Shown here: one piece after another, positions 1 to 33,790 of the stretch
Position numbering within the stretch: the stretch's first letter is position 1
Layout of the letters: each line of letters opens with the position of its first letter
Source: Verrucomicrobiota bacterium
GTDB lineage: Bacteria > Verrucomicrobiota > Verrucomicrobiia > Limisphaerales > UBA9464
DNA: 44,445 nt
Direction: 5' to 3'
Assembly: GCA_947471985.1 (NCBI GenBank)
Contig: CANIZL010000054.1
Span: 1 to 44,445, forward strand
The notes under the pieces: model-generated
What the model was told of the DNA's origin: nothing
The model's database searches: none
Seen by the model: the letters and a program-made list of their open reading frames with translations, nothing else
Translations under genes and position numbers: made by a program

Positions 1-2412
1 CGTGGCCGACGGCGATTGGCCCTGCAGAACCACGCTGGTTGCGGTTAGCGCAGTCGGAATCTGCACGGGTTGGTGGGACGGTATCGGAAACCGCTTAAGC
101 TTGGTTCCATCAAACTCATAACGTTCGTCCCAAAGCGTCTTACGAACTCTTGCGCCTTCGGTTCCGACATGGTCACCGCCTTTGGGGAAAGCTACCTGCT
201 TCATCCAGAAGCAAGAGAGGGAGCTGTTAAGCACTCCTACCAATCTGACATGTTCCCCTTCAGTCGCGTCGGGAACGAGTTTGATGATTGGCGCGTGGCT
301 GTTGAACATGTAACCACCGCGGTCTAAGACGAAGTGATTGTGGGTGGCTACGTTCGCGAACGAAATGGACAAACTGGTCCGCATCTTTTTCGCCATGATG
401 ATGGCGTATTCTCTCCAATCCAGACCTCGTTGAGCCTTGGTTTTTCCAAAGTAAGGGGCGAAGGCAAGGATCCGACGAAACTTCCAAAACTGCTGCTCAG
501 CGGTAGGCGCTCCGACGAAGGAACCGCGCTCGTCGTAGGGGTAAATCACCCCGCTCGTCTCTCCATAACCAAAGTCTCGGATTGTCTCTCCTATCACCAT
601 CTTACGTAGAGATTTTTCGCTTATTCCAATTCGCGACCAATCTTGACGAGAATCAGAAACGAATACGTCGTCATCTCCAGGAATTGCCAAAAAGCCAATG
701 GATTCGCACTTGTCGCCGACGCAATAGTCCACGCTTTCGTCGATTTCTTCCTTCAACTCGGCTGCTCCCCCACCGCCAATGCTCCACGGGTGTGAGTGAA
801 ACTTTTGTCGGAGTGAGTCAGCCGAACTTACCCATTCGCTCTCGCTGCCCGGTTCGTCGATCTGACGCACAATGGCCCGCCAGACTAAACCTTTCGAGGG
901 GTCGGCGGGCGTCGATGGTTCGCCTGCAATTCCGAGCACGGTGCGGATGGTGCCACTCACAGGCGGCTGATTTTTCCCATAAAGGATGACCGTGGGCGTG
1001 CCGTGGCCGGGGATGTAGGTGCCCGAGGTGTCGAGGACGTGCGTGAGGTTCCAGCGCGGGAGGAATTCCTCGATGAGTTTTTTGCCAAACTCGCGCTTCA
1101 TGAACGCATTCCCGGTAATCTGCCCGACGAAACCGGCCGGCTGCTGCGCGGTGCCGTCGCCTCTGACTGCAAGGTCGAAGAATCGCTCCATGAAAGGCAC
1201 GGAAAGCGAGTATTTGCCGCGGCACGAGGGGAAACGCTCTCGGTAAAGCTCACTGACTGCCTTGTCCTTGACGGTGATGTAGGGCGGATTGCCGACGACG
1301 GCGTGGTATTGCTGCCCGAGGATACGGTGCAGGGCCTCGACGTCCTCGACCTCGTAGTGGTGCTTGAGTTCGTCGCGGAAAATCGCGTCTCCGGTGTCGA
1401 AGGTCCGCTGTGGGCCAGTGTTCGACTCGAACTCGCGAAACCGCCGCCCATGCAGCAGCGAGTCCCCCGTGGCCAAGTTGAGCCGAAAGTTAGGTGTGCC
1501 TTTGAGTTTGGTCACCCCCACCGACCGAAGTGCGGCAATCAGCAACCGAAACCGTGCAATCGCCACCGCAAACGGGTTCAGATCGACGCCGAACACGGAA
1601 TCCAGAGCTCGCTGTGCCAGTTCACGGATTGGTGTGGCAGGCTCAGCCTGTTGCCAGAGCTTCAGAATCCGGTCGAATCCCCCCAGCACGAAGTGACCAG
1701 AACCACACGTGGGATCGATCATCCGGACGCCCTTCAATCCGAAGGTTTGGATTGCCGGGTTCAACGTGCGGTCGAGGATGAACTCCTCGATGAAGAGCGG
1801 CGTTTGCAGCAGGGCGTAGCGCTTTCGCGCCGCCTCGGACAGATTTTGGTAGAGGTCGCCTAGGAAACGGGTGTCCCACGAGGCGTCTGTGAAATCGTGG
1901 TTCAGCACTCCAGTGTCGGGGTTCCGCTCCTGCCAGAAGCGCAGGAGCTTGGTCACCGCGTCGCCGGTCGGGCCGAACTGCCAGAGCGGGTTGTGCTTCG
2001 GATCGAACAGGTGGCTGAGGCCCGCCAGATTCGCCGCCGTGCGGAAGACGTGTTCAAGGTAGTCGCGGTCGGAATGGAGCTTATTCGTCCGGAAATATTC
2101 CTCCAGTTCGTGCTCCGCCGCCGTCCTCCGGTCGCCCGGCCCGCTGATCCACGGATGGTCCAGCAGCTCGTTGTCCTCCAAGAACCGGATGAAGACTGTT
2201 CCCAGCACCCAGGCCACGGCGATCTGAGTGATCAGTTCATCCCGCCACACCGAGTAGGCCTCGGTCGTCCGCCGACTCGCCCGGGCCGCCTCATATTGCC
2301 CGGTGAGCTTGGCCTTGATAGTCGGTTCCGCGTCGGAACGGTTGCGCAGGTCCTTCTCCAGATTGAGGAGGACCGGCTTGAGGGCGTCGAGCAAGGCAGT
2401 GCGGTCGATCAT
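1..2412 (-). CDS. pglX: BREX type 2 DNA adenine methyltransferase PglX, N-terminal 804 residues
   Basis: The frame is open from an ATG at 2412 to the left edge, so the gene is partial and its C-terminus lies outside. The product should methylate adenine as the self-marking enzyme of a phage-exclusion (BREX/Pgl) system. A SAM-binding motif I (DPTCGSGHF) is at residues 233-241 and the catalytic NPPY at 375-378, the order expected of a gamma-class N6-adenine methyltransferase. The N-terminus (FLEDNELLDHPWISGPGDR region) reads like BREX-2 PglX as I know it. Full-length PglX is usually about 1,200 residues. The start overlaps the pglW stop as ATGA, which indicates translational coupling and one operon. 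pglY, pglZ and the other BREX-2 genes would be expected to the left. I am confident of the methyltransferase, and fairly confident of the BREX-2 assignment because of the PglW neighbour. Confidence 0.9.
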   Translation of the reverse strand, partial: MIDRTALLDALKPVLLNLEKDLRNRSDAEPTIKAKLTGQYEAARASRRTTEAYSVWRDELITQIAVAWVLGTVFIRFLEDNELLDHPWISGPGDRRTAAEHELEEYFRTNKLHSDRDYLEHVFRTAANLAGLSHLFDPKHNPLWQFGPTGDAVTKLLRFWQERNPDTGVLNHDFTDASWDTRFLGDLYQNLSEAARKRYALLQTPLFIEEFILDRTLNPAIQTFGLKGVRMIDPTCGSGHFVLGGFDRILKLWQQAEPATPIRELAQRALDSVFGVDLNPFAVAIARFRLLIAALRSVGVTKLKGTPNFRLNLATGDSLLHGRRFREFESNTGPQRTFDTGDAIFRDELKHHYEVEDVEALHRILGQQYHAVVGNPPYITVKDKAVSELYRERFPSCRGKYSLSVPFMERFFDLAVRGDGTAQQPAGFVGQITGNAFMKREFGKKLIEEFLPRWNLTHVLDTSGTYIPGHGTPTVILYGKNQPPVSGTIRTVLGIAGEPSTPADPSKGLVWRAIVRQIDEPGSESEWVSSADSLRQKFHSHPWSIGGGGAAELKEEIDESVDYCVGDKCESIGFLAIPGDDDVFVSDSRQDWSRIGISEKSLRKMVIGETIRDFGYGETSGVIYPYDERGSFVGAPTAEQQFWKFRRILAFAPYFGKTKAQRGLDWREYAIIMAKKMRTSLSISFANVATHNHFVLDRGGYMFNSHAPIIKLVPDATEGEHVRLVGVLNSSLSCFWMKQVAFPKGGDHVGTEGARVRKTLWDERYEFDGTKLKRFPIPSHQPVQIPTALTATSVVLQGQSPSAT

Positions 2413-5400
2413 GACGTTGCGTTCTGAAAGCGGGCGGTAAGGTTGAGCCACACCTCGGGGATTTGTTCCCACTGTCCTCGCGTCGCCACCGGGACCGGAC
2501 GTCCGTGGAGCGTGGGAAGTCGGTTCTGGTCGTCCGAGGGGACGAGCACCCAGAGGGATCGGGGATTCTGGCCATCGAGGCAGATGGCTTCGCGGAGTTG
2601 TTCCAAAATCGGGATCTGGTTGAACCGGGCGAGCAGACCAATGTTCGTCAGGAGCACCGGACCATCCTGCGCGACCAATTGCGCCTTCAACTTGGGCATC
2701 ACGTAACTCGCCACGAGTTGATTGAGCTTATTCCAGTCGATGGAGGTCTCGGCGGCTTGGTCGGCCTCCAGGATTTTCTCCCACTTCACCTTCAACGACT
2801 CGGCTTGGGCCTTCAGTTCGTTCAACAGAAGGGTGTCGAGGTCGCAGACCGCCACTGGAAACCCCTCGCGGAGCCTTTGCTCAACGACGAGGTAGTTGGT
2901 CGTTGTCGAAACCAGCACGAGGTAGCCCGCCGTTTGGATCGAGCGTTGGAGCCGGTCCGTGAACTGATTGGCCGTCAGCTTCTCCGCCGTGACGCCATTT
3001 TCCTCGGCGTTGCCCGAATTCCCCTTCGTCGCCGTCGAGGAACTCACCCCGGTCACCCGGTCCCGCCGCTCCGAGCGATAGGCACCCCGGCCATTGTCCG
3101 CCGTCGGGTCCCACTTCAGCTTCGTATCGACCTGATCGAGCAAGGTATCCAGCTCGGGGCGATTGGGCAGCGGAGCCGCCTCGGGATAGCGGCTGCTGAC
3201 GCGCTGGCGGATGTCATCGACCGACAGGTCTCGCGTGCCGAGCAACGCACCCGCCGCCAACTGGATGGCGCGGCGCGGTTCCAATCCCCGGGGATAGACT
3301 TCCAGACGCGAGGAGAGTCCGGCAGTCAGCGAGGCGTTCACCGCCAGCTTAACCAGTCGTTCGTCGGAAAGCGGGGAGACTCCCTGCGGGACACGAACCC
3401 GGCGCAGGGTCTCGACCACCCGCGCAGGCGGTGCGAGCGGATCTTGCAGAGCCAAATCGTCGGCTTCCTTGCCCAACCGGAAGGCGTAGTCACCTAGGTC
3501 GTGGCTGATCGCAATCAGCACGCGGTCGTTGCTCCGGCTTTCGACGAAGCGGGCGGTCTTCAGGGAAAACTCGGTTTCGCAGGCGGTGCGGAGAACCGCG
3601 ATGGCGATTTGCGTCCGCCGGGGCTCGGTCTCGGTGGAGCCTCGGGCCGCGAGGAGCGCGTCCGCGAGTTCCTTGTGCGTCATCGCTCCGCCGGAGGCCT
3701 GGAGGATGTGGAAGATGGCCTCGCGAAGTCCGGTGATCGATGGCGTGCGCGCCCAACGGTCGCGGGCACTGCCAACGACCTGGCCAATCCGCTGACGGGA
3801 CACGCCGCTGTGTTTGGCGACCTCGGTCTGGCTGGGCCATCCCGCAAGGTCTTCCGGCGGGATGACCGCCCGCGGGGCATCGTTGAGCGCGGAACCGCTC
3901 GAAGGGGAATCCGACGGTTGGGAACTTTCCGACGGGAGTTCCTTCAACCCCAGAATGAGGCGGATGATGTCGGCTTCGCCTGCGCCAATCCTGTTCAATG
4001 ACGAGACCAAATGATTGGCCACCCAATCGATGCTCGCGGATTCCGACTCGTTGGGCGTGCTGTCCCGATGATCGGTTTCCGTGGCGTCCTGTTTGGGCTG
4101 GATGTCCGGGAAGCGAACACGCAGGTCGCGGTGCAGATCGGTGATTTCGCGCTGCGTCTTCTTGCCGACGCCGGACAGCCGATTGAGCCGCCAGATGGAG
4201 CACTGCAAGAGGTCCCGGACAGTGATGGCGTTGATCTTGTCCACGGCATTGGCCGCCCGGGTGCTGAGACCAAGTTCGACCAACTGGGTGGAGAGCTGAG
4301 CCTTCTCAATCAGCGCAGCGCGAGCAGCGGTCGTGATCAGGTCGCCACCATGGGGCGTCTGATCCAGTTCCGCGAAGACCGCCAGCCATGCGTCGCGCAT
4401 CTGGCGGGCGTTGTCGAACCGCTGGCTGAAATCCCGGCGCAGGGCGCGCTGGAAGAACTCGATCAACTGCTCACGCAAATCGGCGCTGAAACGTTCTGGG
4501 AAGAGATTGGCTTCGCAGTCGAGGACGGCTGGATCGCTCTTGCCGTCGCCCCACGCGGGAAGATCCCCGGTGGCCATCTCGTAGAGCGTCATGCCGACGG
4601 CGAATCGCTCCGCCTGGAGATCCCAGCGGATGGGCTTTCGAAGCCGGATGAAGGGGTCGAGGTAGGCGGTCGTTCCACACCGGATGTTCTCTGCGGAGAT
4701 GTGGGAAAGTGAGAAGTCGAACAGCGCGAGGTGCTGCTCGGACTGCTTGCCACGCTGCCGGATGCCGATGTTCTCGGGCTTGATGTCGCGGTGAGCCACG
4801 CCCATGCGCTCCAGTTCCACGACGGCATCGATCAGGTCCGTGCCGAAGCGCTGGAGGAAGTCGATGTGCAAGCGGCCTTCCTTGCGCAGGCGGCGGGCCA
4901 GCGTTTCTTCGCCCGCACGCTCCATCAGGATGCCTGCCAAACCGTGGAGATGCAGGAGTTCCTGGGCTTTGACGATCCCGGGATGGTCGAGGCGCTTGAG
5001 GGTCTCGAACTCCGACTTCAGGCGGTCGTTGTGGTCGGGCTGATTGGCGAGCTTCAGCACGGATTGCGATTCGCCGTGCTGAACCAAAAAGGCGACGGCC
5101 GTGGAACCTTGGCCGAGCCGTTCCAGCACTACCAACCCGCCCGGGAGGCGGTCGCCCGTCTTCGCTTCGATGGGATTCTGACGCGCCTCCGAATCCGGCG
5201 TGGTCAGTTCGTTCTCCACCAGGTTGAGTTGGTGGAGGAATTCCCGGACGTCGTCGTAGCGGGCGAGGACGTCGGGATGCGTGCTGAACCGGATGAGATC
5301 GCGAAGTTCGTCGCCCGCAGCATCCATGACGCTGCCGATGTCCAAACCGCCTTCGCTCGTCACCCGCTGGGTCATTTCCAACGGCGACGTCGCGGGCGTC

Positions 5401-6680
5401 TGGCCGGTGAACAGGTAGTAGGCCAGCGCCCCGAGGCTGAAAATGTCCTGGCTGAGTGCGTCGCAGAACGGGTCGCGCTGCGCTTCCGGCGAGAGGTAAA
5501 CGGCCGAGGAATCCTCCACCAACTGCTCGGCGTGGAGGGTTCCGGTGACGCGGGTCGCACCGGTGGTGGTGGCACTCGACCGCCGCGCGAGTTGCCAGTT
5601 CAGGATCTGGAGTTGGGGAACGGGAGCCTCGGGATTCAGCACCAGAATGCTCTGAGGGCTGAGTGCGCGGTGAACCAAGCGGCGATGATGAGCGAACTGA
5701 AGGGCTTCAGCGATCTGCCGCACGAATTCGAGGCGGGTGCCGACCGTCAAGCGGTCCGCCCGTTGCGCCATGTAATGGTCGAGACGTTGGGCACCGGTCG
5801 GAATCCGGAACACCAGCGCCGGTCCGAGCTCGTGCTGGGTAAACGTCTCCGCGAGGACGATTCCCGGATGCAGCAGATCCTGGAGTGACATGAACTCTTT
5901 CTCCGCGGCGCGTTGGAGGGACTGGCGTTCATTGGCGGGAAGATGCGGCGCAATCGGGTAGAGACGGACGATGCGCCGCGTATCGGGCAAATTGACGTGG
6001 GCCGCAATCCAATCCTGAAACAGGCCGACCGGGCTCTCGTTGAAGATCTCCTTGAGCTCGAAATCGGCCACCCGCCGGGACTTCTGGGTCTGTCGGATGC
6101 CCGCTTCTTCCAACGCCCGAAAGACTGCACGAGCCGCCGGTTTGTCGAGGCGTTGGGCGTTGTTGCGCTCCTGCCCGAGTCCATTCCGGTTGATGAGCGC
6201 CTGAAGGATCCCCGGAGACTTGTCTGTGTCGCGAAGGAAGACGTTCGTGCGCCCGGCCCCCGCCAAACGATTCTGGAGGTCAGTGGCGGAGCAAAACACG
6301 ACCGCTTCGAGATACGGAATCGACGTCTTGGCCGCCGCCTTCTGCCGCCGCAGTAGGGAAACCAGCTTGCGGGCCTTCCGATTGGCGAGGAAAAGCGGGT
6401 TGTCGTAGGTGAAGCGGTGCCCGCCAGTGGTCCATGTCCACGTGTGGACGTCGCCGTTGAGGATGCCCGGCCGGCTCTTGATCTCGACCAGGAAGAACCC
6501 CATCGGGGTCAGAATCAGGGCATCGATCTCGTTGATCGTGCCGTCATCCGCGAGAAACTCGAAGTTGGACCAAGCCATGTAGGGCTCGTGGTCGGGCAAT
6601 CCCGCGCGCAGGTATTCCAACGCCTCGGACTCCCAAGCCGATTGGGAGGGCGTGATGGCTTTCCAGCGTTGCGGTGACAT
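2409..6680 (-). CDS. pglW: BREX type 2 serine/threonine kinase PglW
   Basis: A 1423-residue multidomain protein. Residues about 16-130 form a NERD (nuclease-related) domain with the D53 and E66-x-K68 pattern. Residues about 200-480 form a first kinase-like domain whose catalytic loop reads HRALSPQS instead of HRDxKPxN, so it is probably a pseudokinase. Residues about 510-770 form a second kinase domain with GQGSTAVAFLV as the glycine loop, HRDIKPEN at 630-637 and DFS in place of DFG at 655-657. After residue 800 come helix-hairpin-helix-like (LSGVGKKTQREI) and HTH-like (VAKHSGVSRQRIGQV) segments. The size and NERD-kinase order are those of PglW, the kinase of the Streptomyces Pgl/BREX-2 phage-resistance system. 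The last codons overlap the pglX start by four bases. The second kinase is likely the active one; the role of the first is inference. Confidence 0.92.
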   Translation of the reverse strand: MSPQRWKAITPSQSAWESEALEYLRAGLPDHEPYMAWSNFEFLADDGTINEIDALILTPMGFFLVEIKSRPGILNGDVHTWTWTTGGHRFTYDNPLFLANRKARKLVSLLRRQKAAAKTSIPYLEAVVFCSATDLQNRLAGAGRTNVFLRDTDKSPGILQALINRNGLGQERNNAQRLDKPAARAVFRALEEAGIRQTQKSRRVADFELKEIFNESPVGLFQDWIAAHVNLPDTRRIVRLYPIAPHLPANERQSLQRAAEKEFMSLQDLLHPGIVLAETFTQHELGPALVFRIPTGAQRLDHYMAQRADRLTVGTRLEFVRQIAEALQFAHHRRLVHRALSPQSILVLNPEAPVPQLQILNWQLARRSSATTTGATRVTGTLHAEQLVEDSSAVYLSPEAQRDPFCDALSQDIFSLGALAYYLFTGQTPATSPLEMTQRVTSEGGLDIGSVMDAAGDELRDLIRFSTHPDVLARYDDVREFLHQLNLVENELTTPDSEARQNPIEAKTGDRLPGGLVVLERLGQGSTAVAFLVQHGESQSVLKLANQPDHNDRLKSEFETLKRLDHPGIVKAQELLHLHGLAGILMERAGEETLARRLRKEGRLHIDFLQRFGTDLIDAVVELERMGVAHRDIKPENIGIRQRGKQSEQHLALFDFSLSHISAENIRCGTTAYLDPFIRLRKPIRWDLQAERFAVGMTLYEMATGDLPAWGDGKSDPAVLDCEANLFPERFSADLREQLIEFFQRALRRDFSQRFDNARQMRDAWLAVFAELDQTPHGGDLITTAARAALIEKAQLSTQLVELGLSTRAANAVDKINAITVRDLLQCSIWRLNRLSGVGKKTQREITDLHRDLRVRFPDIQPKQDATETDHRDSTPNESESASIDWVANHLVSSLNRIGAGEADIIRLILGLKELPSESSQPSDSPSSGSALNDAPRAVIPPEDLAGWPSQTEVAKHSGVSRQRIGQVVGSARDRWARTPSITGLREAIFHILQASGGAMTHKELADALLAARGSTETEPRRTQIAIAVLRTACETEFSLKTARFVESRSNDRVLIAISHDLGDYAFRLGKEADDLALQDPLAPPARVVETLRRVRVPQGVSPLSDERLVKLAVNASLTAGLSSRLEVYPRGLEPRRAIQLAAGALLGTRDLSVDDIRQRVSSRYPEAAPLPNRPELDTLLDQVDTKLKWDPTADNGRGAYRSERRDRVTGVSSSTATKGNSGNAEENGVTAEKLTANQFTDRLQRSIQTAGYLVLVSTTTNYLVVEQRLREGFPVAVCDLDTLLLNELKAQAESLKVKWEKILEADQAAETSIDWNKLNQLVASYVMPKLKAQLVAQDGPVLLTNIGLLARFNQIPILEQLREAICLDGQNPRSLWVLVPSDDQNRLPTLHGRPVPVATRGQWEQIPEVWLNLTARFQNATS

Positions 6681-28032: not shown

Positions 28033-29475
28033 TCAGTCCGCAGCCGCCGGTCCTTCAAGCAGACGGGCAACGTGTTTGTTCACGGCCAGTCTTCTGGTCA
28101 CCTCCGCCATGGCCCCCCCATCTTCAATCAGCGACCGCACCAGGGGCGGGGCTGAACTCAGTGCCTCCTTCTCCACCTGATTTCGCTGATCCTTGGAAAG
28201 ACTTTGGAGGAATTGATCCACAACCCGTTGTCGCTCTCGCTCACGCACGTTCTCCCTCTCTTCGCGTCGCCTCTGCCGTGTTGTGGCTTCTTTCGTGCGT
28301 TCCTGAATCTCCCGTCGCTTTCGGGCGATTTCCGCGGTTCCCAAGAAGCCCGGTGGCGGTGAAAAATCCCCGTGGATGGCACTGAGGAGAAAACCCGGCG
28401 GGTTCCGGGAAACCCTCGGATCTTTCCGTGCGACGAGCCAATCGAGAACCTCGATCTGGGCCCGGACCTTTTCGGCTGCATGCGCTTTGACGGTTTCTTC
28501 GGCCGCCTTGACGCCGACTCCGCGTTCCACCAGCGCATCGGTCAGTGGTGAAGTCGCGCTTTCAGACTTGGTGGGTGACGATGCAACGTCACGCGCACCC
28601 GCCTTGGTGAACCGAACCTCCCATTTCCCGGAGCACACTTTGCGAAAGCGCTCGTCCTCGGGCATCGGCTCCAAATAGCCCGCCCGTTCCAACTCTTCGA
28701 TGCCCACCCGCAGTTTCCGCTTGAGGCTGGCGGCATCGTAACCGCGAGACAGACCGACGTGATTCCAGCTCAACTCCCTGAGGTCGAATTCCCATCGGCG
28801 GCGGTGGAAGAACCGTTTGTCGAGAAACCGATACAGCCGCTTCGCGATGGCGCTCTGGAGTCGCTTGAAGAACTCGAAGTCGATGGCCTTGAGATTGCCT
28901 CCCTGGAAGCTCCGGAACAGGACCTCGTTCCAGACAAAGGCCGAGAGTGGCGCCCCCGGACCGAGGTCGGGCCGGGTGTCGTGTCGGTGACAAAGCCAGA
29001 CGTTGTCGATGACGTGAAATTTTTCATCGACCCAACACTGCCGCTGCCTGTCCCACCAGGCGTTCCGGTAGTAGAGCGTCACGCCAGTCCAACGGTTCAG
29101 CGACTCTTCCAACCGGTCGTAAGTCTTGGTGTCGTCCCGCCAGCCCAGCAGCCGAATGAGCTGGTAGCGGGTGAAGGAAACCTTTCGGTCCGCGAAACCG
29201 CCCTGGCGGCTGAGCTGAATCAGGCCAAGCAACACCTCGTCGTCCAACGCCGTGGGCAGTCCAAAGGCATCCGAACCGGTGACGGTGAGTTGCCGGGTGA
29301 CGTAGTCGGCCCGACCCTTGTCCCAGATCCGGTCCTCAAAGCGCAGCGTCTTCCGCTCCGCCGGGAGCCGGTGCGCCAGCGCGCACAGCGGAAATTCCGC
29401 CAAATTCAACTCATCTCGTCCGTCCCCGCTCCCGACCCTCATCGACTCCAGTTCGATGCACTTTCTGTCCCGCAC
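28033..29475 (-). CDS. plasmid replication initiator, RepA/RPA family
   Basis: A 480-residue protein that would bind the iterons and open the origin. The core (about 20-300) matches the replication initiator protein A family: ELNLAEFPLCALAHR, YVTRQLTVTGSDAFGLPTALDDEVLLGLIQL, a winged-helix segment (SFTRYQLIRLLGWRDDTKTY), AIAKRLYRFLDKRF and the second winged helix (LSWNHVGLSRGYDAASLKRKL). The C-terminal third is a long charged helical region. The start is a GTG at 29475 with GGAGG seven bases upstream. The iterons lie about 110-220 bp upstream and parA is divergent beyond them, the usual rep-ori-par layout. Confidence 0.88.
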   Translation of the reverse strand: MRDRKCIELESMRVGSGDGRDELNLAEFPLCALAHRLPAERKTLRFEDRIWDKGRADYVTRQLTVTGSDAFGLPTALDDEVLLGLIQLSRQGGFADRKVSFTRYQLIRLLGWRDDTKTYDRLEESLNRWTGVTLYYRNAWWDRQRQCWVDEKFHVIDNVWLCHRHDTRPDLGPGAPLSAFVWNEVLFRSFQGGNLKAIDFEFFKRLQSAIAKRLYRFLDKRFFHRRRWEFDLRELSWNHVGLSRGYDAASLKRKLRVGIEELERAGYLEPMPEDERFRKVCSGKWEVRFTKAGARDVASSPTKSESATSPLTDALVERGVGVKAAEETVKAHAAEKVRAQIEVLDWLVARKDPRVSRNPPGFLLSAIHGDFSPPPGFLGTAEIARKRREIQERTKEATTRQRRREERENVRERERQRVVDQFLQSLSKDQRNQVEKEALSSAPPLVRSLIEDGGAMAEVTRRLAVNKHVARLLEGPAAAD

Positions 29476-29817: not shown

Positions 29818-29880
29818 CCACTTGTAGGAAGGATTGGTGCCGTGTTACGACCGCATCATGGGACGATGGAGGCTTCGGGC

Positions 29881-30579
29881 ATGATTGTGGCACTGACCAA
29901 TTCGAAAGGCGGCGTGGGCAAGTCCACCTTGGCGGTTCATCTTGCCGTGTGGTGGAAAGAATCGGGCGCGAACGTCGCGCTGGTGGATGCCGACGTGCAG
30001 GGCTCGTCGTCACTTTGGCTCAAGGAGACGGGGACCGAGATTCCCGTCTTCCGGCTTCAGTCCGCCGATGAGGTGCTCGACCGCGTTCCGGAGATCAGCC
30101 GAACTTTTGAGCACATCGTAGTGGATGGCCCTGCCGGGCTTTCCGAAGTAACCCGAGCCATTCTGCTCGTGGCGGATCTGGCGTTGTTGCCGTGCGGTCC
30201 CTCGGTGCTCGACCTGCGTGCCGCCAACGAGGCCATCCGCGTCGTTAAACAGGCACAGGCGATTCGGAGCGGCCGACCGGACGCGGTGCTGATCCCGAAC
30301 AAACTTCAGGTGCATTACCGGCTGAGTCGGGAACTGCTGGAAACCACGCGGAACATGGCTGTGGCATCAACGGAGGGACTCCGGTTGCGGCAGGCCTACG
30401 CCGAGGCCGCCGGTCAGGGGACCGTCGTGTGGCGTCTGGGAACGCGTGGCGAAATGGCTACCAGTGAAATCAGGGAGTTGTGGAATGGACTATTCAGGAC
30501 GGACACGGAGAACGATGGGCGAAGCATTGCAGACGGCGGGGTTCAGCCGCGAGGAACTGACCTTTGTGACCGGCGGTGA
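29881..30579 (+). CDS. parA: ParA-family partition ATPase
   Basis: A 232-residue P-loop ATPase. The deviant Walker A KGGVGKST is at residues 9-16. ALVDADVQGSSSLW (motif A') and HIVVDGPAG (Walker B region) follow, as in short ParA proteins of type Ib partition systems. I chose the ATG at 29881 since the family begins MIVALTNSKGG and GGAGG lies eight bases upstream; the frame extends 13 codons further. The 3' end overlaps the next gene. It would position plasmid copies on the nucleoid. It diverges from the rep gene across the iteron region. Confidence 0.9.
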   Translation: MIVALTNSKGGVGKSTLAVHLAVWWKESGANVALVDADVQGSSSLWLKETGTEIPVFRLQSADEVLDRVPEISRTFEHIVVDGPAGLSEVTRAILLVADLALLPCGPSVLDLRAANEAIRVVKQAQAIRSGRPDAVLIPNKLQVHYRLSRELLETTRNMAVASTEGLRLRQAYAEAAGQGTVVWRLGTRGEMATSEIRELWNGLFRTDTENDGRSIADGGVQPRGTDLCDRR

Positions 30580-30853
30580 GCTTTCTCCCCCTGTGGCTCC
30601 GGCGGACAAACCCAAGACCGACCAGCCGTCCCGTCGGCCCAAAGCGAGGGCAGTGGTGACCTCCGTCGCCGATGGTGCAGTACCTGATTCAGCACCGGGT
30701 GCGACGGTCTCGATGACCTTTCGCCTCCCGGCAGATCTGCCCGCTCAGCTCATTCGCACCTCCGCCGAACGACGGGTTCAACGAAAGAGCCCCAGCAGCC
30801 AACAAGCTATCGTGGCGGAAGCACTCAGGGAATGGTTCGAGCGCCACAGTTGA
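30485..30853 (+). CDS. small partition partner, ParG-like/ribbon-helix-helix candidate
   Basis: A 122-residue protein overlapping the parA end. The N-terminal half is basic and disordered (proline/lysine-rich). The C-terminal 45 residues read as a ribbon-helix-helix-type unit (VSMTFRLPADLPAQLIRTSA, then SSQQAIVAEALREWFERH). Small ParB-type partners of short ParA proteins have this layout. AGGGAG stands seven bases before the ATG at 30485; a second in-frame ATG at 30515, with GGAG four bases upstream, gives 112 residues and is equally possible. Confidence 0.72.
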   Translation: MDYSGRTRRTMGEALQTAGFSREELTFVTGGELSPPVAPADKPKTDQPSRRPKARAVVTSVADGAVPDSAPGATVSMTFRLPADLPAQLIRTSAERRVQRKSPSSQQAIVAEALREWFERHS

Positions 30854-30879
30854 ACTGAAGGGCAGCGGTTTCCAACCGT

Positions 30880-30979: not shown

Positions 30980-32301
30980 GATGGGCATGAACGCCCGCCA
31001 AACCGGATTCACCATCCGGCTAAGGGGACGGAGTTTACCAACCGTCACGTTCATGTTCCGTAGAGCGTGGTGCCACGAGAGTGGCCCGCCACGTTCGAGA
31101 GAGGCTTTTGGAAGTAATCCCCGGTCACCAACCGGGAGTAATCTCCAGATTCTATCTCATGGCGTCGGGGCTCCGCCCCGCGAATACGGGCGAACGGGAA
31201 ATGCTCTGCCGTGCAAATCGGCGGAGTTGTCGGATTCAAAGCGGGTGCGGAAGGAAGCTTCCAAATCCCCCGGCGGGACACGTGACCACAGCCCTTTGGG
31301 CCAATCGGGTGCAATGCTCGTGAGGTTCGTGTAACGCACGCTGGCGTCGGGAGCCCGGCGGTCGCAAGACCGACCGGCCGGAGGGGGACAACCTCCGGGG
31401 TTCTGCCGAAAAAGCAGACCGTGAAAAGCTCAACGATGAGAGGGGCATCAAGCCCTTGCCAGTAAGCAACAGCAGAGACGGAGCCGAATCGGGAAAGACC
31501 AACCAGGACGGGTAAGGGAGCAGCTTCTGTATTCTAGCCCCCGAAATCGGTCTCCCCAGCGGGGATCGAAAACTATGCCGAGGCGGAAGCCTCGACCATA
31601 CCTGGAAGGAACGGACGATAGTGTCCTACCGACGTGACTGCTGTAGCGGAGAGTCAGACTAACCGTGCAAGGAGTGTGGCTGCCGGAGTGGTATCCGGTG
31701 TCGGCCAAGTCAGCCGATGATTCAAACGCCGCACTTCGATGAGAGTGTTCCAAGTAGGAGCGGACGATGGTCCGCACCCTGTCCGCGTTTCCTTCGGGAG
31801 ACAACGGGCGGGGTGTCGCTTCAGCAAGGCAGTTGAAGCGGCGGGCGCGTGCTTACGGGTGGTGCCGGGCACAAAGCGCACACGAAAGGAACGACGGGAT
31901 TCACCCGTCTCAAAATGAGGTCAAAGGTCGGTGGGGTCCAATCCCCCACCGGCCAGTTCTCCATGGAGAGAACATTCGTTCGAGCCCGCGCGGCCTGGGG
32001 ACAGGCGGCGGTGATCGAAGGCAACTGAACAACAAAACGATTTTCGGGAACGCAACGGGATTAGGGATTTGCGGGCGCAACCACTATGGATTGCGCAACT
32101 GCGATGCAGGAATACAGCTTCGTACAACGGAGATGGACGAGAAACCTGCGCACAGCGCGAACACGAGGTTTTTAGGACGACGAGGTTGGACGTGGTTTTG
32201 AGCACTGCAAGGTGCTGTAGGGTTTGGGCTTTCGGGAAAGTTGCGCCCCCAATGCAACTTCCCACCTTCACGCCTCCATAACAGCCGGTGGAGGCGTGAA
32301 C
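30980..32301 (+). ncRNA. candidate large structured RNA (about 1.3 kb) upstream of a basic protein gene
   Basis: No credible ORF exists on either strand, yet strong hairpins follow one another. Examples: 31120-31136 (CCCGGT/ACCGGG), 31204-31226 (CTCTGCCG/CGGCGGAG), 31359-31372 (CGGTC-GCAA-GACCG, a GNRA loop), 31378-31398 (CCGGAGG/CCTCCGG), 31579-31594 (CGAGGC-GGAA-GCCTCG, GNRA), 31760-31775 (GCGGAC/GTCCGC), 31788-31801 (UUCG loop), 31893-31909 (GACGGG/CCCGTC), 31926-31954 (11 bp), 31956-31973 (GTTCTC/GAGAAC), 32075-32096, 32234-32263 (10 bp with one bulge) and 32269-32298. This density with tetraloops resembles large ornate RNAs, but I match it to no known class: there is no reverse transcriptase or intron domain V as in group II introns, and no IscB as in HEARO/omega RNA. 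The 5' end is a guess. Confidence 0.65.
32269..32298 (+). promoter_or_regulatory. hairpin hiding the ribosome-binding site of the basic protein gene
   Basis: CACGCCTCCA (32269-32278) pairs perfectly with TGGAGGCGTG (32289-32298) around a 10-nt loop. The right arm contains GGAGG (32290-32294), seven bases before the ATG at 32302. Folding would block ribosomes, so translation may depend on the RNA's conformation or on a bound protein. Confidence 0.75.
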
Positions 32302-33135
32302 ATGGGTTACCGGTGCGTCGCCACCTCGGTGGCGGGATTCGTGCAGCAATTGGCCGTGTGCTACGTGGGGCGCGGATATTACTTCTACGTCCAGGGTGGC
32401 ATCCCGGCGCAGAAGAACCCGGCGGCCATCGACCGGAAGCTGGTCGAGCGCTACGGGATCGCCGTCTCGAAGTGGACTCGGTGCAGGCGGCGCAAACGGG
32501 GCCACGCCAGCGTGCAATATCTGCGCCACGGCGAGTTCTTCGTGCTGTTGGCGACCCACGGCGAACACCCGTTCTTCGGTTCAGAAGGAACGCTCGTTCG
32601 GGACATCCGACGACAACCGCTCCGATTCATGGGTTACTCCATCGGCTGCCGGCCCGCCCGGGGCGGCGGACTGCTTCACCCCTCGGTCCGAATCGAGAGG
32701 AGGGAGTTCGCAGCCTTGAAGGCTCATCTGGGGAGGGTTGCCGTCCACCGTTCGGTCGATGACCTCTGCCGGATTCTCCGTTCGTTGCCTTACGAGCCCT
32801 ATGCGCCGGTCCGGGACCAGTTGCGCATCCTGGTCCGGTCCATGAACCGCCGCCGCAAAGCGGCCGGTTTGGAGCCCGTCCCGCCGGGAGCCTTTCGACA
32901 ACGAAGAAGGCCGGTCCACCCCTTCGGAGCTCCGTTGCCCCGACCAACGGTAGCGCCCCCCAATTTATCGTGTCCGGAAAGGGCTGCTTCCAGCGACTGC
33001 ATCTCTGATCGGACATTTTTCAGGAGCAAAACCTATGAGCGACATGCAGAACAACAACCCGAACCAGCGGAAGAAACCGACAGCCAAAGGCGGCATCCTG
33101 GTGCCGTTTCCGAAGCCGATCGTGGAGAGGACTGA
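32302..33135 (+). CDS. basic protein of unknown family, partner of the structured RNA
   Basis: A 277-residue, strongly basic protein. The N-terminus is well ordered: a hydrophobic, aromatic block (VAGFVQQLAVCYVGRGYYFY, 11-30), then WTRCRRRKRG (58-67), RHGEFFVLLATHGEHPFF (75-92) and RFMGYSIGC. A second basic helical part spans about 125-190 (VRIERREFAALKAHLGR, MNRRRKAAGLEPVP). Nothing resembles RuvC, HNH, LAGLIDADG, reverse transcriptase or a transposase catalytic set. Arginine clusters alternating with aromatics suggest RNA binding. The start is set by GGAGG at 32290. From about residue 210 the sequence is low-complexity and overlaps the next gene by 101 bp, so the native end has probably been lost by recombination and the frame runs on. 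Confidence 0.75.
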   Translation: MGYRCVATSVAGFVQQLAVCYVGRGYYFYVQGGIPAQKNPAAIDRKLVERYGIAVSKWTRCRRRKRGHASVQYLRHGEFFVLLATHGEHPFFGSEGTLVRDIRRQPLRFMGYSIGCRPARGGGLLHPSVRIERREFAALKAHLGRVAVHRSVDDLCRILRSLPYEPYAPVRDQLRILVRSMNRRRKAAGLEPVPPGAFRQRRRPVHPFGAPLPRPTVAPPNLSCPERAASSDCISDRTFFRSKTYERHAEQQPEPAEETDSQRRHPGAVSEADRGED

Positions 33136-33790
33136 CCTGGATCGACTGCCTCCGGACCTGCTGATCACTATTGATGGGCAGGCCCGCACGGGCAAGAACA
33201 CGGCCGGGGAACTCCTCGCGGGGGCGCTCGGCGGAATCCTGGTGGATTCGGGCCGATTCTACCGGTCCCTCACCCAAGCCGCTTTGGTCGCGGAAGTGGA
33301 CCTTGATGACCGGAACGCCGTGGAATCCTTCTGTGCCGGGGCGCGTCTGGACGCCGTCATCCGTCCGAACGACCGGGGTGTCTTTGAAGCCCTCACCACG
33401 GTGAACAGCGGATTGTTTACCGACGCCACCCTCGTTTCCGTCGGGGCCTTGGTTCCCAAAGTGGCGCAGATCCCGTTGGTTCGCGCCCTGGTGAATGCCA
33501 CGTTGCGCCGACTTTACCGGGGAGGACGAATGATCGTTCTGGGCCGGGACATCGGGATGAAGGTGTTCCCGAACACCCCCTACCAGTTTTACTTCTGCGC
33601 CCCTGCCGCCATTCGCGAGCTGCGCGATTCTGGCCGGATCGACGGCAGTGCAGTGGCCAAGCGCGACCGCGACGACGCCAATCAGACCTTTTTCCCGCCC
33701 AAAGCTGCCGAGGTGGACACCGGCAACAAGTCTCCGGAGCAGGTGCTCCATGTGATGCTGGATGAGATTCTGGAGCGGACGCCGGAGTAA
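33035..33790 (+). CDS. cmk: cytidylate kinase-like protein with atypical P-loop
   Basis: A 251-residue protein. After a 40-residue extension it follows the cytidylate kinase fold: ITIDGQARTGKNTAGELLA (P-loop, where Cmk normally has GPSGSGKGT), GGILVDSGRFYRSLTQAAL (LDTGxxYR equivalent), GRDIGMKVFPNTPYQFYFCA (the GRDIGT motif) and VAKRDRDDANQTFFPPKAAEV near the C-terminus. Cmk phosphorylates CMP/dCMP. GKN replacing GKG/GKS and GM replacing GT suggest altered activity. AGGAG lies eight bases before the ATG. A nucleotide kinase is unusual cargo on a mobile element and may serve DNA replication or a nucleotide-based defence; this is open. Confidence 0.85.
   Translation: MSDMQNNNPNQRKKPTAKGGILVPFPKPIVERTDLDRLPPDLLITIDGQARTGKNTAGELLAGALGGILVDSGRFYRSLTQAALVAEVDLDDRNAVESFCAGARLDAVIRPNDRGVFEALTTVNSGLFTDATLVSVGALVPKVAQIPLVRALVNATLRRLYRGGRMIVLGRDIGMKVFPNTPYQFYFCAPAAIRELRDSGRIDGSAVAKRDRDDANQTFFPPKAAEVDTGNKSPEQVLHVMLDEILERTPE

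Follow-up and report, generated by a model that had tools for sequence, protein, structure and literature searches.

We describe here a conserved structured RNA and the basic protein encoded directly after it on a contig of a Verrucomicrobiota bacterium (lineage UBA9464; GenBank CANIZL010000054.1). The stretch analysed, hereafter the window, is the entire contig of 44,445 bases, which forms part of a 6.38-Mb genome assembly. The RNA is a member of the known circularly permuted (CP) class of group II ribozymes, which is thereby extended to further phyla, and the locus as a whole is probably a CP group II ribozyme followed by the gene for its own reduced maturase, a remote relative of the protein AcpG. 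A first-pass annotation had already pointed to a long structured RNA on the same strand as a basic partner protein, and the region proves to be conserved in relatives with strong covariation. Among the analogies it offered, that with group II introns and their maturases was apt. Its statement that neither the RNA nor the protein fits such classes has to be withdrawn: the former is a CP group II ribozyme, and for the latter structure prediction gives the fold of a group II reverse transcriptase (RT) in reduced form.

The canonical order of group II domains, D1-D2-D3-D4-D5-D6, is not that of the window RNA, in which D5-D6 precedes all other domains and the order is D5-D6, linker, D1-D2-D3-D4. 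We assign the RNA to the CP class because its features match those listed for CP group II RNAs by Roth et al. (2021, PMC8637638), in the part of that article drawn on here and below: D5-D6 before D1-D4, reversed splice sites around a short linker, a branch adenosine, pairing of exon-binding site 1 with intron-binding site 1 (EBS1-IBS1), and a pseudoknot between the loops of P2 and D2, the most widely distributed pseudoknot of CP RNAs. All elements lie on the plus strand. The P2 hairpin (31027-31046), a CP-specific 5' element whose loop pairs with that of D2, is placed by loop-loop covariation. D5 (31063-31096), with an AGC triad, a GAGA tetraloop and a two-nucleotide bulge (CC), is placed by an Rfam match, a covariance model of our own (R1, below), its fold and compensatory pairs. 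D6 (31097-31160) carries the bulged branch-point adenosine at 31154, in an unpaired alignment column, and a splice-site motif puts the 3' splice site after the AU that ends at 31160. The linker of 27 nucleotides (nt; 31161-31187), delimited by the splice-site motifs, is the predicted excised RNA circle, and its last six nucleotides (31182-31187) are IBS1. D1 (31188-31666), supported by compensatory changes and EBS1-IBS1 pairing, begins with GGGCGA and holds EBS1 (GUAUUC, 31529-31534); D2 (31672-31737) is placed by the loop covariation and the D1-D3 consensus. D3 (31747-31892) and a D4-like 3' part (31893-32301), which ends in two hairpins at the protein start, are assigned by position. The AcpG-like protein of 277 residues follows at 32302-33135.

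No Rfam family matched anywhere in the window at its gathering score. In a permissive scan of the region, Intron_gpII (RF00029, D5/D6) was the only match with E below 0.1 (31061-31155, 36.9 bits against a cut-off of 40, E 4.8e-5), and this cut-off was passed at the matching place in 4 of 10 relative loci scanned (L012-L015). Domain permutation, together with a D5/D6 score just short of the cut-off, kept the class of the RNA from view.

In an alignment of D5-D6 from 15 loci, compensatory changes occur in 20 of 32 pairs, and the D5-D6 fold has a z of -5.85. The AGC triad is invariant in 15/15 rows, D5 has the published geometry of five pairs and then a two-nucleotide bulge, and the branch adenosine occupies unpaired column 141, flanked by paired columns 140 and 142. 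The D1-D3 consensus (14 loci) has 169 pairs, 111 of them with compensatory changes. The 400 nt leading up to the protein show conservation in eight close relatives but weak covariation (compensatory changes in 24 of 78 pairs; covariation term -0.58 kcal/mol). EBS1 and IBS1 pair at 104 of 126 positions over 21 distinct pairs, against 81.0 +- 3.9 with partners permuted (0/20000), the second copy of plasmid locus L037 having been dropped. Without L040, whose EBS1 was located by eye, 98 of 120 positions pair against 77.9 +- 3.8 (0/20000), and in several divergent loci the pairing is imperfect. For the P2 and D2 loops (25 rows, 23 distinct, with L002, L003, L015, L017 and L036 left out), the summed longest duplexes come to 119 against 100.0 +- 3.6 permuted (0/5000), and to 102 against 86.4 +- 3.4 (0/5000) without the three rows whose loops were found by eye (L018, L038, L040). 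All these RNA permutation tests and pair counts ignore phylogeny. Alignment A4 was made without L019, L030, L031 and L033, and A6 with L019 trimmed and without L030, L031 and L033.

The 15-locus D5-D6 alignment was built into the model R1, of which the window (119.9 bits) is a training row. In 30 of the 30 loci examined, namely those with an R1 match less the second L037 copy, the AT that ends D6 is followed by GGGCGA after 12-41 nt (median 24; 27 nt in the window); the splice-site pattern was drawn up on these same sequences, and where GGGCGA occurs twice (L018, L019, L020, L040) one was chosen. The same boundary rule applied to the published CP plasmid pPNAP05 gives 32 nt, the size of its predicted circle, which is consistent with gels (Roth et al. 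2021, PMC8637638). Another candidate 5' splice site, GTGCG at about 31245 with a linker of about 85 nt, was ruled out by the pPNAP05 comparison in favour of GGGCGA at 31188 and the 27-nt linker, and with that move the idea of a conserved linker or circle was dropped.

The RNA strand of 31020-31985 has a folding energy of -445.1 kcal/mol, whereas 20 dinucleotide-shuffled sequences average -377.3 +- 7.4 and none of them folds as low (z -9.15, 0/20). The hairpin loops singled out earlier are present (GCAA at 31364-31367, GGAA at 31585-31588 and UUCG at 31793-31796), as are two stems directly before the protein ATG (32302), at about 32238-32263 and at 32268-32299, the second of which holds a GGAGG ribosome-binding site. 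The structured region itself stands, with a different 5' boundary: a start at 30980 is too late, conservation among close relatives beginning near 30875. Mechanical plus-strand open reading frames (ORFs) of up to 144 residues between 30980 and 32301 are judged spurious, since the alignment gaps are non-triplet. Two further analogies of the first-pass annotation find no backing. OLE RNA gave no match, either across the window at the gathering score or in a regional scan that admitted E values up to 5. A nuclease with RuvC or HNH domains, which an IscB-like system would lead one to expect, is not found either: no nuclease family matches the protein (Pfam, NCBIfam) or its relatives (Pfam). The locus is not an RNA-guided system.

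The outcomes that the first-pass annotation had named as refuting its reading did not occur: homologues of the protein keep the upstream RNA, and the RNA covaries. The GTDB collection holds 32 relatives of the protein, from Verrucomicrobia, Planctomycetes, Acidobacteria, Hydrogenedentota and others, of which 26 have at least 1.3 kb of upstream sequence and the remaining six are cut by contig ends; 24 of the 26 carry an R1 element 5' of the gene and on its strand (14 are model rows, 10 are not). Eight records of a plasmid collection match the protein, and the element is present in four of the five opened (L035-L038). From the start of the D5 model to the protein the distance is 1177-1570 nt in 24 of 25 loci measured, window included, and 792-1373 nt in four plasmids; the exception, L004, has an insertion and measures 2150 nt. 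The distance from D5 to the protein start is about 1.2 kb here, whereas the published class is given as about 900 nt, and the hosts include Verrucomicrobia, Planctomycetes, Acidobacteria and cyanobacterial plasmids as against Deinococcus-Thermus, Firmicutes and Proteobacteria (PMC8637638). R1 finds pPNAP05 at 38.4 bits and misses pTT8 (L034), in which the CP boundary motif is seen by pattern. In L004 the insertion places some 900 bp between the CP RNA and the AcpG-like gene (L004:4070-4985), with a reverse-strand frame that by eye resembles a phage-type adenine methyltransferase, and no similar DNA was found in plasmids. A Calothrix plasmid has two same-strand CP D5-D6 copies (L037:621-731 and L037:2772-2873) upstream of one AcpG-like gene.

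Within the phylum, R1 matches 38 of 387 genomes, all at 53.5 bits or less apart from the window genome and G339 (90.2 bits), and the AcpG-like protein occurs in 2 of the 387, the same two with strong RNA matches. Group II RTs are found in 161 of the 387, and none was found in the window's own genome (96.25% complete). Ten weak R1 loci were opened. Five show the canonical order, in that a YADD-containing frame stops immediately before D5 (L049, L050, L051, L056, L058). The other five (L052-L055, L057; reopened with more flank as L122-L126) have no GGGCGA within 260 nt after D6, so that none of them looks CP; that the weak matches might be CP introns still equipped with an active RT is on this ground not supported. 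At L122:1746-3233 (reverse complement) a YADD frame lies about 1 kb downstream of the weak D5-D6 match, and the first 260 nt of the interval hold no CP boundary. No relatives of the protein were found in phages, nor were there any among 35 pattern matches in viral contigs, and blastn of the RNA against plasmids gave no match.

The protein had been described as basic and of no recognizable family, and both points hold: residues 1-210 contain 39 Arg and Lys against 13 Asp and Glu (computed pI 11.2), and neither Pfam nor NCBIfam matches it up to E 1. Profile comparison identifies it as remotely related to AcpG, a protein found with CP RNAs whose published description reports no detected homology to any known class (PMC8637638). 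Against Thermus AcpG, hhalign gives P 2.4e-6 over 163 columns at 20% identity, with a score of 45.8 where the maximum in 100 column shuffles is 19.9 (0/100 reach it), and hmmsearch, within the ORF set searched, reaches AcpG of T. aquaticus (L047) at E 1.4e-4 and a Gluconobacter plasmid protein at E 2.4e-15. Like AcpG of Thermus plasmids (TTHC007), the protein is encoded beside a CP RNA, but its gene follows the RNA on the same strand, whereas that of T. thermophilus HB8 is divergent (PMC8637638). It is under purifying selection, with ratios of non-synonymous to synonymous substitution (dN/dS) of 0.08 and 0.13 against its two nearest relatives (dN and dS 0.057/0.675 and 0.109/0.869).

The text of Roth et al. 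drawn on here gives no fold or function for AcpG (PMC8637638). Modelled by AlphaFold2 with 30 sequences, residues 1-210 (predicted local distance difference test 94.3, predicted template-modelling score 0.88; confidence is low after about residue 214) are predicted to adopt an RT palm and thumb fold, and group II intron RTs are the best matches to the model. The top Foldseek match is the group II RT chain 8h2h_D (E 2.7e-3, probability 0.97). VIA-align, which re-ranks Foldseek candidates and in which rows within 1 Z count as tied, gives the same chain Z 10.4 over 188 residues at 3.7 A, then 8t2r_D (9.5), 8t2s_D (9.4), 6me0_C (9.2), 8fli_B (9.1) and 7uim_D (8.9); further down stand DRT9 (8.5), 6ar1_A (8.2), Prp8 (8.0) and retrons (up to 6.6). 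Among the 50 rows listed, which the fold comparison covers, 49 are RTs, RT-like Prp8-type chains, telomerase or viral RNA polymerases and one is a designed protein, the Prp8-type label of whole-spliceosome chains resting on residue numbers common to an entry titled Prp8. Because best Z values of 7-8 are common for unmatched models, the argument lies in the top rows and their coherence.

The aligned part of known group II RT chains begins only at residue 102-154, and the fingers region is for that reason taken to be absent. Alignment by hhalign to group II RT profiles, weak as it is, is colinear through RT5, RT7 and the thumb, matching 'YLRHGEFFVLL' to the YADD stretch and 'FMGY' to 'FLGY', and its scores exceed all 100 shuffles each (23.9 against at most 21.7 and 28.4 against at most 22.6; reversed, 17.3 and 14.4). 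By the same weak alignment the YADD aspartates correspond to residues 78 and 79, with Asp in 1/30 and 0/30 rows and mostly Arg and Phe in the others; the RT3 aspartate is aligned to a gap, and residue 33, chosen for it by eye, is Asp in 0/30 and Glu in 5/30 rows. Since the catalytic aspartates are missing at the aligned positions, an active polymerase appears unlikely, and for want of the YADD aspartates we do not file the protein as an active intron-encoded protein. It shares with the group II intron-encoded RTs and maturases (8h2h, 8t2r, 6me0, 6ar1) the predicted palm and thumb and the position after D4, but differs in having about 210 structured residues, no fingers, no YADD and a gene beside the ribozyme, not within it.

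An RT-like fold need not mean descent from the intron's own maturase: AcpG might belong to another RT lineage, such as a retron, a DRT or some other domesticated RT, and have joined the ribozyme later. The scores of DRT9, Prp8 and the retrons, with the tie rule, and the lack of a clear sequence tie to group II RTs speak for such a history. The six best rows, however, are all maturases of group II intron ribonucleoproteins, the RNA it accompanies belongs to the group II ribozymes, and in this family the ORF lies after D4 on the same strand, the place expected for a permuted intron; we consider another lineage unlikely.

The surroundings of the unit are those of a plasmid core. The window contig looks like a plasmid because it encodes a RepA-like initiator (28033-29475, minus strand), ParA (29842-30579, plus strand), a TrwC relaxase and a TrwB-type coupling protein. 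The RNA and basic protein sit between a small ORF 3' of ParA (30446-30853), which has no Pfam match, and a cytidylate kinase-like gene (33035-33790), which overlaps the end of the AcpG-like frame and has homologues beside the CP RNA and AcpG-like unit in L002, L003 and L009. In four of six Thermus plasmids opened (L043, L044, L045, L047) a ribbon-helix-helix (CopG-type) gene stands directly before acpG, and the small ORF of the window may, by eye, resemble it. Elsewhere on the contig a 1,423-residue ORF (2409-6680, minus strand) matches NERD, protein kinase and RNA polymerase alpha-CTD domains, an odd combination for a plasmid-like contig. The unit is single-copy in the window genome. Three other genomes have multiple copies of the protein, most with the RNA (L014, L016 and L027; L011, L017 and L032; L010 and L013), and several copies per genome suggest plasmids or spread.

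In this setting AcpG might instead serve plasmid maintenance or bind DNA, the ribozyme being just a neighbour in the plasmid core. RepA or ParA homologues of the window genes do lie near the unit in 18 of the 32 relative loci (L003, L004, L005 and 15 more), a count that comes without a background rate, and the published association is one of proximity, with interaction unproven (PMC8637638). Set against it are the same-strand RNA that precedes the gene in 24 of 26 loci, the confinement of the protein, among the 387 phylum genomes, to the two with a strong CP RNA match, and the predicted RT/maturase fold, which together make mere neighbourhood improbable. Decay of an ordinary group II intron into a fragment without present function, to which the single copy in a genome where no group II RT was found might point, can be dismissed almost entirely: strong covariation and splice-site pairing are kept in diverse relatives, the protein is under purifying selection, and the domain order is permuted, not truncated.

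Several observations weigh against a CP ribozyme with its own reduced maturase. On the RNA side, the D5 bulge is CC in the window and UN in the published class (PMC8637638), so that the consensus U is not kept; the R1 match is missing in two of the 26 protein relatives (L030, L033) and in plasmid L039; and in-vivo processing was not detected for pPNAP05 in the published work (PMC8637638). As to AcpG, hmmsearch reaches E below 1e-3 for one of six Thermus AcpGs only (L047; L046 stands at 0.16), and the family profile is not significant against TTHC007 alone. CP RNAs with no AcpG nearby have been reported (PMC8637638), and AcpG may for that reason be dispensable. The RT relation, finally, comes from the predicted model: no Foldseek match reaches E 1e-3 or below; Foldseek itself superposes the model poorly on 8h2h_D (query TM-score 0.37, root-mean-square deviation 15.9); no RT family or PDB chain was found in Pfam, NCBIfam and PDB searches; hhalign is weak against 14 group II RTs (P 0.024, probability 2.0) and against 37 (P 0.0052, probability 6.9); and Thermus AcpG shows no match to the RT profile (P 0.16).

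From the computed architecture and fold we infer ribozyme activity, RNA binding, a maturase role and an origin as follows. By analogy with the published CP class, D1-D4 of the transcript would fold around D5-D6. The branch adenosine 31154 would attack the 5' splice site before G31188 and the freed linker end would then attack the 3' splice site that follows 31160. The 27-nt circle would thereby be set free, with D5-D6 still joined to D1-D4 through a 2'-5' bond. Of the RT fold the protein would have kept the thumb (maturase) region and some of the palm, and would have lost the fingers and catalytic aspartates. In canonical maturases it is the thumb that engages the RNA core. AcpG most likely binds and stabilizes the active ribozyme fold, as intron-encoded maturases do, with no RT function. 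With its gene after D4 and on the same strand, the locus can be read as a circularly permuted form of the canonical intron D1-D4(ORF)-D5-D6. The resulting order, D5-D6-linker-D1-D2-D3-D4-ORF, suggests descent from a mobile group II intron of canonical layout through a circular permutation that included the ORF, the protein having become catalytically dead afterwards.

Prp8 is a dead RT scaffold, an RT-like fold with no RT activity beside a group II-like RNA active site, and it is a structural match of the AcpG-like protein (Z 8.0); it differs in being eukaryotic and very large and in working with split small nuclear RNAs. A tentative reading, which may well prove wrong, would make the locus a plasmid-borne bacterial counterpart of Prp8 and the spliceosome, in which a dead RT, formerly the intron ORF, acts from outside a permuted ribozyme. 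Given that acpG comes after D1-D4 and is read from the same strand, a joint transcript that back-splices would leave, besides the 27-nt circle, an acpG message with a 2'-5' branched D5-D6 5' end, a self-made cap. The window fold buries the GGAGG site in the last hairpin (32268-32299), and this would let AcpG control its own translation; the burial across loci is suggestive, there being no control and some starts being search-match edges. On the same reading, the units would ride in plasmid replication and partition modules.

In the literature searched, with most subscription journals and bioRxiv outside its scope, no paper on AcpG besides that of Roth et al. was found, and the protein as a reduced RT, together with the layout of permutation with ORF, appear to be new. 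Three matters were left open in the part of that paper drawn on here: the identity of AcpG, the seeming loss of the intron-encoded protein and the in-vivo folding of so large a ribozyme (PMC8637638). If AcpG is a reduced maturase, then the intron protein went through the permutation together with its intron instead of being lost, and each of the three questions can be put to the test. The locus would then also represent a small bacterial case of a dead RT kept as a splicing cofactor, a role usually ascribed to Prp8.

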